Assembly (NCBI GenBank): GCA_026391945.1
Contig: JAPLDA010000075.1
Location: 1 to 61,164, forward strand
DNA length: 61,164 bases
Direction of reading: 5' to 3'
Origin: Bacteroidota bacterium
GTDB taxonomy: Bacteria > Bacteroidota > Bacteroidia > AKYH767-A > 2013-40CM-41-45
This document shows positions 49,255-52,812 of this stretch, piece by piece. The notes below the pieces were generated by a model that did not search any database, had not been told where the DNA came from, and saw only the letters and a list, made by a program, of their open reading frames with translations. Within the stretch, counting starts at the first letter, position 1. Each line of letters opens with the position of its first letter. The position numbers were made by a program, and so were the translations under genes.

Positions 49255-49704
49255 CTATTTACTCTCCAATTTATCCAGGAGGAGTGATAATTCTTTCGTC
49301 GTAATCGTTCGATGGATTTTTTTTGCCTTAAGTCCTTCGATCAGTTGCTGATCACCTGTCCATAGTTTGGCTTTCAGATGTTTCGACAAGGCGACAAAAG
49401 GAGTATCATTCATATCAATTTTAGTAAGAAGGATTTCTGTTTCGGAAACAATCCTGCCGGGAATAAGCTTTTCATTAATAAAAGTAATATGTTCAGTTAC
49501 CAACGATTCGAGTTCAGCAATTTCATTTACAGAAAGCCCGGTTTTGTTTTGAAGCTTTTTTCGATGCTTCAATAGTTCCACTCTTAAAAATTCGCAGGTA
49601 TAAAATTCGAAATGATTTTTGGAGTTCATCAGAATTTTTCCAATCCGGCTGGATGAATTGAGAATGGCACTGAAAACGATATTCGTGTCAACAACAATTT
49701 TCAC
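49255..49704 (-). CDS. PIN-domain ribonuclease toxin
   Basis: The 149-residue protein begins KIVVDTNIVFSAIL with the first catalytic Asp, has an acidic residue in the CEFLRVELLKH helix, and KIDMNDTPFVALSKHL followed by LWTGDQQLIEGL. Together these supply the acidic quartet of PIN nucleases. As part of a two-gene module it is probably a VapC-like RNase that targets RNA. Its ATG overlaps the stop codon of the antitoxin gene (four bases), so the two proteins are made together. This is the first gene of the accessory island. Confidence 0.85.
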   Translation of the reverse strand: MKIVVDTNIVFSAILNSSSRIGKILMNSKNHFEFYTCEFLRVELLKHRKKLQNKTGLSVNEIAELESLVTEHITFINEKLIPGRIVSETEILLTKIDMNDTPFVALSKHLKAKLWTGDQQLIEGLKAKKIHRTITTKELSLLLDKLESK

Positions 49705-49904
49705 CTAATGAATTTCTTGCGATTTTTAATCCACCATTTCTTATTGACTTCGTCTGCCAGTTTATCCACTTCTTTTTGAGAAACCTTAAACCCGGATGTT
49801 AATTCTTTGTAACGGGCATAATTTAAAAAGTCCTGCAAGTCATCAGTATTCACTGATGCAGGTAACCGGATGATGACCTCCCTACTGGTTCTTTCAATTA
49901 ACAT
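49701..49904 (-). CDS. Antitoxin partner of the PIN-domain toxin
   Basis: The 67-residue protein starts MLIERTSREVIIRLPASVN, a short beta-rich DNA-binding-type segment. A helical middle (DDLQDFLNYARYKELTSG) and a charged C-terminal tail ending in NRKKFIR follow, likely to wrap the toxin. I cannot assign an antitoxin superfamily with certainty. Overlap with the toxin gene and the small size support the pairing. A TATCTTTG box lies 18 bases upstream on the minus strand. Confidence 0.75.
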   Translation of the reverse strand: MLIERTSREVIIRLPASVNTDDLQDFLNYARYKELTSGFKVSQKEVDKLADEVNKKWWIKNRKKFIR

Positions 49905-50637: not shown

Positions 50638-50747
50638 GCAACGATGAGTTGTCGCTAGCTTTCACACAAGCCGGCGTATTAAAGCTACAACCAGCGGGGG
50701 GCACGCCTGTAACGATGAAATGCCGCTTGACTTGTTAGTATGTTAGC
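50638..50747. repeat. Imperfect palindromes and direct repeat, attC-like appearance
   Basis: TGCAACGATGAGTTGTCGC (50638-50656) recurs as TGTAACGATGAAATGCCGC (50708-50726) with 15 of 19 positions equal. Between them GTTGTCGCTAGCTTT can fold with AAAGCTACAAC. CAGCGG (50692-50697) can pair with CCGCTTG (50723-50729). GTTAGTA and GTTAGCC follow. The layout recalls integron attC sites, but no site matches the full consensus. Confidence 0.4.
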
Positions 50748-50757
50748 CTTATCTTTG
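50727..50757 (+). promoter_or_regulatory. Promoter of the 61-residue Fic-motif protein
   Basis: TTG (50727-50729), a 20-base spacer and TATCTTTG (50750-50757) give a good Bacteroidota promoter. The ATG is at 50765, seven bases after the box, so the transcript should have little or no leader. Confidence 0.6.
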
Positions 50758-50764
50758 GCTTCTA

Positions 50765-50950
50765 ATGAGTTTCTTCGATAAATATCCTAAACTTAAAGAA
50801 AGACAGTTTTTAGTGGAATTAATGGTGAAAACCGTTTATTCGACTATGGCTTTGGAAAACCAAACGGTTGAGCAATCGATGGTCAAGGATATTGTTTTAT
50901 CTGTTATTAGAGAACAAGAATCACATAACAGTAAGCTCTCGTTCAATTAA
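50765..50950 (+). CDS. Small Fic-inhibitor-like antitoxin (VbhA-type motif)
   Basis: The 61-residue protein is predicted all-helical. At residues 27-32 it has TMALEN, which fits the Fic inhibitory-helix motif [S/T]xxxE[G/N]. The helix TVEQSMVKDIVLSVIREQE follows, the same order as in the antitoxin VbhA. In class I Fic systems such a separate protein inserts the Glu into the Fic active site and blocks ATP binding. The Fic gene next door lacks an obvious inhibitory motif of its own. The two genes are tail-to-tail and overlap by 30 bases. The assignment is inference from the motif and context; a strong promoter supports expression. Confidence 0.7.
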   Translation: MSFFDKYPKLKERQFLVELMVKTVYSTMALENQTVEQSMVKDIVLSVIREQESHNSKLSFN

Positions 50951-51505
50951 TACTTTGAGAGAATCTATATTTCCTTTGTCCGCCTGACGTAATGCGTCAA
51001 TGTATTTGCTTCTGGATTCGCCTTCTCGGAAATAAAGTTCCAGCGGTTGGTAACCGAACTTTAAAGCCATTAAGTTCATTACGAGCCTTCCTGTTCTTCC
51101 ATTACCATTATTGAATGGATGAATTCGGACAAATTCATAATGACCGTATGCTAACGTCTGAATATGATCGGGTTTGGTTTTAGCATGAGAAACTTTGTAA
51201 TTGAGCTCATCAAAATACTGGTACATTAGATTTGGAATTTGAGAAGGCACTGGTGGTTCAATTTGTCCAACAGTAACAATGGTTGTTCTCCATTTTCCTG
51301 CCCAGTCGTAAAGTTCTCCGAAAGCAATTTTATGGATTTGTAAAACTAAGGAAGAAGTGAGTTCAATATTCTCGTCAAGATTAAAAATGTGAAATTCAGC
51401 ATTAGCAATACCCTTCGCTTCAAGCTGATTAATTTTGTCTTTATCAGTGAGCCCAAGAAGATTGTCTTCAGGTGAAGGTGTCCAACTTGTATTTTCATTT
51501 GTCAT
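50921..51505 (-). CDS. Fic-domain protein
   Basis: The 194-residue protein has the Fic core: ELTSSLVLQIHKIAFGELYDWAGKWRTT and the active-site loop HPFNNGNGRTGR (~residues 134-145). The loop matches HxFx(D/E)GNGRxxR except that the acidic metal ligand is Asn. TVGQIEPPV corresponds to the flap that binds the target. Fic enzymes transfer AMP or other phosphate-containing groups to proteins. The architecture resembles 'mobile mystery protein B'. No [S/T]xxxE[G/N] motif is visible at either end, so inhibition must come from outside. No -7 box is clear upstream of its ATG. Confidence 0.88.
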   Translation of the reverse strand: MTNENTSWTPSPEDNLLGLTDKDKINQLEAKGIANAEFHIFNLDENIELTSSLVLQIHKIAFGELYDWAGKWRTTIVTVGQIEPPVPSQIPNLMYQYFDELNYKVSHAKTKPDHIQTLAYGHYEFVRIHPFNNGNGRTGRLVMNLMALKFGYQPLELYFREGESRSKYIDALRQADKGNIDSLKVLIERELTVM

Positions 51506-51741: not shown

Positions 51742-52812
51742 TTACGCTTTACTCTCGATCTGCACTGTTATTTTTTCATTGAGTGCTTTTGAAATTTTTT
51801 CTAAATAATCTTTTTTCAATTGAGTTCCATGATTTATATTTATATAATAGGGTGTCCCCGAAAACTGTTTATATTTTTTCTTTACTCCGACATTGAATGG
51901 CTTATCTGAGATCAAAGGTGCACCACTGATTACTGGTAGTTTTCTAACTCTGTCAATACCAAATTCTCGGATTGACTCAATAAATGTATCTATTGCTTTA
52001 TTCTCATTAATTATTTTCCCATTTGGAAAAATCACTTTAAGAATTGTGTGTTCTGCTCTCGCATTATCTCCAGTAGAAACATCGGACTTAGAATTATCTT
52101 CGTATTGATCTTCTTCAACTTCTTTGATGTCGTTATTTTCATTTAGAGAATTTACTACAAAATCGTCAGTCGGTCTGAAACCGCAATATTTTTCAGTTTC
52201 GTCAGACAATAACTGAATAAAGTCAACAGAAGGTTTAGCCAATAAATTTTTCCATACGACAGGAAAGGATTCATTTATTGCGATTTGTTTTTTCTGTCCT
52301 TGTAAAGAATCTTCTGCGGACCGAAGAGCATTACCGTTCTCGGTATTCTCCTTGGAAAGAAAACAAATTAATTTTTCAGATATTTCATCTGAATTTTGAA
52401 TTTTCAAATCAATCGTGAAAAATTTTCTCTGCTTCCAATCACCTTCTTTTAAAGGTATATAAAACCACCAAGTCAGACCATTAGTTAAAATTGCAAGAGG
52501 AACTCCTGAGCTAAATGAATAAGTTAATAATTGTTCCTGGTGTTTTTGTTTATCGAGATCTTCTTCCTTAATTCGTTTTACTTCAATAAATACTTTATTC
52601 GAATTTTTTATTCGCAAAGCATAATCTACTCGTTTTTGCATGCTATCATCAATAAAATATTCAGGAAATATTTCGTCACGATTAAAAATATCCCACCCGA
52701 GAATTGAAAGTATTTTCAAAACAATCGTTTGTTTAGTTGCTTGCTCGTCAAATTGAGATATGTCCTTTATCTCCTTTATCGTTTCAATAGCTGAATTTAA
52801 TTTTTGTTTCAT
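51742..52812 (-). CDS. Orphan type I restriction HsdR-N-domain nuclease
   Basis: Residues ~1-150 of this 356-residue protein match the HsdR N-terminal nuclease fold. They hold KQTIVLKILSILGWDIF, the catalytic RVDYAL Asp, IEVKRI (ExK) and QLLTYSFSSGVPLAILTNG. There is no helicase, HsdM or HsdS gene nearby. A linker rich in Asp, Glu and Asn (~225-255) leads to a C-terminal domain (~260-356) with FIESIREFGIDRVRKLPVI and YYININHGTQLKKDYLEKI that I do not recognise by name. The gene is visibly richer in A+T than its neighbours, a sign of transfer. A defence role is possible but unproven. Confidence 0.8.
   Translation of the reverse strand: MKQKLNSAIETIKEIKDISQFDEQATKQTIVLKILSILGWDIFNRDEIFPEYFIDDSMQKRVDYALRIKNSNKVFIEVKRIKEEDLDKQKHQEQLLTYSFSSGVPLAILTNGLTWWFYIPLKEGDWKQRKFFTIDLKIQNSDEISEKLICFLSKENTENGNALRSAEDSLQGQKKQIAINESFPVVWKNLLAKPSVDFIQLLSDETEKYCGFRPTDDFVVNSLNENNDIKEVEEDQYEDNSKSDVSTGDNARAEHTILKVIFPNGKIINENKAIDTFIESIREFGIDRVRKLPVISGAPLISDKPFNVGVKKKYKQFSGTPYYININHGTQLKKDYLEKISKALNEKITVQIESKA

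Follow-up and report, generated by a model that had tools for sequence, protein, structure and literature searches.

A conserved convergent gene pair of Bacteroidota resembling a FICD-type Fic protein divided into a proposed toxin and a proposed small inhibitor

In a 61,164-nucleotide contig of a Bacteroidota bacterium (JAPLDA010000075.1; this whole stretch of DNA is called the window), a gene for a 194-residue Fic protein and a gene for a 61-residue protein face each other and overlap at their 3′ ends. The two genes are very probably a type II toxin-inhibitor module, in which the small protein would block the Fic ATP site via Glu31 and a FICD-type Fic would have been cut in two. Directly observed as the basis of this reading were both ORFs, their co-occurrence, their convergent order, the motif, selection, and the loss of the toxin before the inhibitor. 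The features of the locus are as follows.

50765..50950, plus strand: ATG ORF of the 61-aa small protein, the proposed Fic inhibitor (antitoxin); 21 homologues aligned with it, purifying selection, AF2 two-helix model
50921..51505, minus strand: ATG ORF of the 194-aa Fic-domain protein, the proposed toxin; Pfam Fic, PADLOC, and FICD/VbhT structural matches
50921..50950, both strands: tail-to-tail CDS overlap of 30 nt, both stop codons included
50843..50860, plus strand: TMALEN, the putative inhibitory motif, residues 27-32; the Glu31 codon is 50855-50857
51086..51121, minus strand: FIC motif HPFNNGNGRTGR, residues 129-140, with Asn where Asp/Glu is usual
50727..50757, plus strand: Bacteroidota-type promoter-like site of the small gene (TTG, 20 nt, TATCTTTG); a consensus match only

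An earlier note on this DNA had described the convergent genes with a 30-base 3′ overlap, the TMALEN sequence fitting [S/T]xxxE[G/N] in the small protein, and the lack of such a motif in the Fic protein itself. The ORF coordinates and a motif scan agree with all three. The motif is also lacking in 16 of the 17 relatives of the window Fic (17/18 convergent Fics including the window), and the sole match, TPSPEG in locus L006, contains two prolines.

Is the pair kept in other genomes? The searches comprised an order-level search of 42 genomes, which gave two further small proteins, a class survey of about 395 genomes, a phylum survey of 395 genomes, one named genome scan, and plasmid searches. 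By profile searches, 18 loci with an intact pair were found in total (the window, L006 which equals L020, L019, L009-L012, L014 which equals L018, L015, L016, L038-L040, and L056-L060). They are distributed over at least nine Bacteroidota GTDB families (f1, f5, f8, f10, f18, f49, f53, f86, and f88), of which f86 and f88 are outside the class of the window, and some are on plasmids of Hymenobacter sp. DG01, Hymenobacter sp. BRD128, and Pontibacter kalidii. The earlier note had staked its proposal on conserved co-occurrence and had suggested a genome search for other tail-to-tail pairs. The search gave 17 such pairs beyond the window across Bacteroidota, and both the co-occurrence and the tail-to-tail orientation hold in 18/18 intact loci. 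The CDSs overlap in 17 of the 18 pairs (4-117 nt), by 39 nt in seven loci and by 30, 36, 32, 29, 26, 14, 4, 117, 96, and 117 nt in the others, and one locus has a 3-nt gap. All three overlap phases occur. Thus, the convergent orientation is kept, but the exact length of 30 nt is not; the 30-nt overlap as a fixed conserved element was rejected because its length and phase vary among loci. The 3′ ends, which set the overlap, are certain, while the starts of L059 and L060 and some Fic starts are uncertain.

In the class survey, all eight matches of the Fic profile at 278 bits or more have a convergent small gene; the next matches are a contig-end fragment (L074) at 146 bits and then sequences at 114 bits or less. 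No intact Fic of the convergent clade without the small gene was seen among the surveyed loci. Three loci (L008, L013, and L054) have an intact small gene and a Fic gene whose catalytic part is deleted; in L008 and L013, what remains of the Fic still has the C-terminal end, which lies under the small gene and next to it. One further locus (L061/L064) has a broken small gene only. Loss of the toxin while the antidote persists is expected of toxin-antitoxin pairs. The pairwise identities of the small protein and of the Fic protein correlate with r=0.95 over the 18 loci, which is expected of genes inherited together and is by itself no proof of contact. The flanking genes differ between lineages, so that the pair behaves as a unit. 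The pairing of the small gene and the Fic gene is not chance.

The motif by itself is weak evidence, since the chance of finding [S/T]xxxE[G/N] in a random 61-mer was estimated to be roughly 5%. It was found, however, that Leu10, Met28, Glu31, and Gln33 are invariant across 22 small proteins (the window and 21 homologues), and the dN/dS of the small ORF is about 0.02-0.12 (non-overlapping part; five close relatives). Thus, the motif is more than chance. At the position following Glu31, N, G, D, E, T, and A all occur; [S/T]xxxE[G/N] is therefore not strict at its end. In an AF2 model (pLDDT 88), the small protein consists of two helices, 13-30 and 37-58, and Glu31 would therefore cap the first helix. 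SRRLEG of EcFicA has been described as capping the first helix likewise (PMC5033356).

The small protein alone has no Pfam, PADLOC, or significant PDB match, and a fold search with its short helical model gave unspecific helical matches only. The single sequence gave one family hint only, to the mobile mystery protein A C-terminus (E=0.009). When the 22-sequence profile was compared with 177,635 PDB sequences, the top match was Caenorhabditis elegans FIC-1 (E=0.031, 44 positions), whose stretch VYHTVAIEGNTLSL is aligned to VystMaLEnQtVsr of the profile so that the Glu31 column falls on the inhibitory Glu274. PDB entry 5jj7 (title E274G) has Gly under Glu31 and scores 11.9 bits instead of 17.4. 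The E-value is marginal by itself; what gives it weight is that the top match is a Fic protein, aligned at its inhibitory Glu. The matches of the profile to 2r5x and G092 were set aside as chance. With hhalign, the small protein was matched to the C-terminus of mobile mystery protein A at a probability of 88.7% (E=2.6e-6), the same motif being aligned. The earlier note had likened the small protein to VbhA. The alignment of the motif Glu with a known inhibitory Glu favors this as far as an inhibitor is concerned, but kinship with VbhA was rejected: none of the 22 small proteins matches VbhA (PF18495), and the hhalign probability is 0.1. The resemblance is rather to mobile mystery protein A and, more weakly, to the FICD helix.

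The assignment of the 194-aa protein to Fic is firm (Pfam PF02661, E=6.5e-21; PADLOC PDC-S04, 148 bits), and its best PDB sequence match is FICD (E=1e-18). FICD is also the best structural match of its AF2 model (pLDDT 75), with a Z of about 17 over FICD residues 234-425, followed by VbhT at a Z of 15.7. Residue 234 of FICD is the inhibitory Glu of the human protein. The window Fic thus corresponds to FICD from the end of the inhibitory helix onward. Judging from this model and the profile alignments, the small protein looks like the piece that is missing from the window Fic relative to FICD, and the two proteins together resemble a class II Fic of the FICD type that has been split. The dN/dS of the Fic gene is about 0.05-0.26 among five close relatives; for the small ORF and the Fic gene alike, the upper values come from one near-identical pair with very few changes. 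In a tree of 47 sequences, the convergent Fics and mobile mystery B proteins lie on one side, and the VbhT-type and HPFREGNGR Fics lie apart from them. The branch by which mobile mystery B joins is long. The hypothesis that the convergent Fics arose once is not rejected (p-AU 0.23), long branches limiting the inference.

The FIC motif of the window Fic departs from the canonical HxFx(D/E)GNGRxxR by Asn at the D/E position, the remaining positions being kept. Hx[F/Y]xN[G/T]NGRxxR was found in 18/18 convergent Fics (Tyr in one) and HxFxNGNGRxxR in all 18 mobile mystery B proteins that were read, while four VbhT-type Fics used as controls have HPFR[D/E]GNGR. AMPylation by the convergent Fics is not to be taken for granted, because the usual acidic residue is lacking; from the motif, their chemistry may be either AMPylation or deAMPylation. 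It is conceivable that the complex is the enzyme itself: the Fic protein, with Asn at the site of the Mg-binding Asp/Glu, would be a poor AMPylase, and together with Glu31 it would act mainly as a deAMPylase or another transferase. The consistent Asn points in this direction, and so does Fic-1-AntF, where E139, the equivalent of the Asn position, is required for AMPylation and not for deAMPylation, and AntF E28 is required for both inhibition and deAMPylation (PMC13327609). On the other hand, the His, the GNGR, and the second Arg of the FIC motif are kept. The FIC-motif Arg residues of Fic-1 are AMPylation-specific (PMC13327609), and their retention suggests that the protein is still a transferase. 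A Fic gene that decays beside an intact inhibitor also fits a toxic enzyme better. I therefore regard an enzymatic complex as rather unlikely, and the toxin-inhibitor module remains the preferred reading.

Since the genes lie on opposite strands, each needs its own promoter. In the window, the small gene has a −7 box, TAnnTTTG, at 50750-50757, with a predicted 5′ leader of about 3 nt. The box starts 14-17 nt before the small-gene ATG in the window, L006, L019, L010, L012, L014, and L015, and also in L008 and L013 beside the broken Fic gene. Before the fic ATG, it starts exactly 12 nt upstream in L006, L019, L010, L012, L016, and L038, and 13-14 nt upstream in L015 and L039; the window fic has no TAnnTTTG box before its own start. 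These boxes are consensus matches and not mapped starts, the background rate in the window being 2 in 46 ORFs. In flavobacteria, the −7 box occupies positions −12 to −5 relative to the start of transcription (PMC9723704), and a box 12 nt before the ATG therefore predicts that those fic mRNAs begin at the A of the ATG. Leaderless mRNAs make up 5.5% in flavobacteria (PMC9723704), and 5′ leaders of less than 10 nt about 3.7% in Bacteroides (PMC7366714). Thus, the toxin mRNA is predicted to be leaderless in several loci and would probably be weakly translated.

Antisense pairing of the mRNA 3′ ends is geometrically possible, and it may have a regulatory effect. An extra RNA layer would then lie on top of the protein inhibition: the convergent, nearly leaderless mRNAs would pair at their 3′ ends and limit each other in a type I-like manner. 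The universal convergent order and the overlap in 17/18 pairs, most often of 39 nt, are consistent with such a layer. There is no room between the stop codons, so the terminators would be inside the opposite gene and the transcripts would overlap further. The unconserved length and phase of the overlap and the locus with a gap speak against it, and a terminator search in the overlap gave a single weak terminator-like site, at chance level. Such RNA control is a minority possibility in my estimation. That the small ORF is unrelated or spurious and just lies on the far side of the Fic gene is very improbable and already contradicted: the short motif and the lack of database matches for the small protein alone would allow it, but the pairing kept in at least nine families with differing flanks, the strong purifying selection, the correlated divergence, and the motif match to mobile mystery A and FICD would not.

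As to the mechanism of the toxin-inhibitor module, I infer a physical complex of the two proteins, inhibition, and toxicity. The small protein, as the inhibitory piece of a FICD-type (class II) Fic, would insert the end of its first helix into the ATP site of the catalytic piece and sequester it. The partner of Glu31 there would be Arg140, the second Arg of the FIC motif, in the manner of the inhibitory Glu in VbhA/VbhT, EcFicA/EcFicT, and FICD. Operon coupling may be replaced by weak translation of a leaderless toxin mRNA together with a separate promoter for the inhibitor, and the two mRNAs would end in complementary sequence.

Beside the Fic gene of the window lies a gene whose stand-alone product has the N-terminal domain of type I restriction R proteins (HSDR_N; 51742-52812, minus strand). 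On the other side, the stretch 49255-49904 (minus strand) has a PIN_2-domain gene that is overlapped by 4 nt by a 67-aa gene directly upstream; these are an ordinary VapBC-like pair adjoining the Fic module. The genome of the window (G000) has two more, distant Fic proteins in 380- and 447-residue frames (L002 on contig C65 and L003 on contig C4). In Pontibacter kalidii plasmid pls1 (L040:1-8292), the convergent genes have on one side an ATP-dependent endonuclease/helicase pair, annotated as Gabija-like, and on the other a type IIG-like methylase. Solo homologues of the inhibitor were also found and add to the case for a toxin-inhibitor module. In a Hymenobacter canadensis plasmid (L041:4001-4168, plus strand), such a gene has no Fic gene beside it, and its 3′ end overlaps a co-directional AlbA_2/ATP-binding gene, which is split in two frames, by 4 nt. 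A phage-like contig, IMGVR_UViG_2834249703_000001 (L065:3001-3159, plus strand), has a 52-aa homologue and no Fic gene; the homologue lies directly before Sf6-type small and large terminase genes. It is possible that this solo inhibitor is a phage counter to the Fic module. The Fic profile found nothing in the viral contigs searched, and the small protein found nothing in the phage records searched. From the Pontibacter neighbors and the phage-like solo inhibitor, a defence role of the module is plausible. A bolder view would combine all of this into an inverted Fic toxin-inhibitor branch, in which FICD is split across strands, the mRNAs are leaderless and overlap at their 3′ ends, the Fic without the acidic metal ligand is an in-complex deAMPylase or another AMP/nucleotide enzyme, and phages disarm it by a solo inhibitor. 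I consider this whole combination distinctly unlikely.

Searches for type II toxin-antitoxin pairs usually look for neighbors on the same strand, and such scans would miss a conserved convergent family. The family links mobile mystery proteins A and B, which had long lacked an explanation, to Fic inhibition, and it offers for study a FICD-like enzyme that is split by nature. It also opens to direct test the questions of whether a protein antitoxin is supplemented by RNA control through 3′-end overlap and whether Fics with HxFxNGNGR perform AMPylation at all.

How does the pair compare with known systems? Class I Fic antitoxins are encoded upstream in an operon (PMC5033356, PMC3667792, PMC5651007, PMC13327609). 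The earlier note had stated this arrangement correctly, as confirmed by these papers and by VbhA-type control loci; the control loci and the mobile mystery A/B loci examined all have the antitoxin, or protein A, upstream on the same strand. In the open-access literature, the searches turned up no description of a convergent Fic antitoxin. EcSofic-AS1 is one precedent for a downstream Fic antitoxin (PMC12249575): its short antitoxin gene lies downstream of the Fic gene, the text not stating strand or overlap. Unlike the window Fic, EcSofic belongs to class II, is longer, and has a C-terminal domain; AS1 has 47 residues. Class I FicTA (VbhTA, EcFicTA, and Fic-1-AntF) resembles the window in having a separate small helical protein with (S/T)xxxE(G/N) ending the first helix, the Glu being invariant and the flanking positions looser in the 22 small proteins, and a stand-alone Fic core without its own motif. 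It differs in the upstream antitoxin, which in the window is downstream, on the opposite strand, and overlapping, in Asp/Glu rather than Asn in the FIC motif, and in VbhA, to which the small protein has no profile similarity.

Mobile mystery A/B (TIGR02612/TIGR02613) shares with the window a Fic with HxFxNGNGRxxR and a protein with MxLE[N/D]Q followed by the same helix. A conserved helix with TMxLE[N/D]Q forms the end of mobile mystery protein A (L023-L034, L062, L063, and L085-L095). By sequence, protein A thus looks like a Fic antitoxin that binds DNA and protein B like the matching Fic toxin, and no paper saying so was found. Unlike the convergent small protein, mobile mystery A has an N-terminal HTH-like region and is encoded upstream on the same strand, whereas the convergent gene is downstream and inverted. 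The window proteins score below the cut-offs of both families (15.8 vs 122.6 bits for TIGR02612 and 78.1 vs 124.4 bits for TIGR02613). FICD/HYPE (class II) is the closest solved structure to the window Fic by sequence and fold, and FICD-type FIC-1 has its inhibitory helix where the small-protein profile lands. Class II Fic proteins carry an N-terminal inhibitory helix in the same chain, and FICD thus unites in one chain a helix and a core that the window encodes as two genes on opposite strands, with the helix on a gene of its own.
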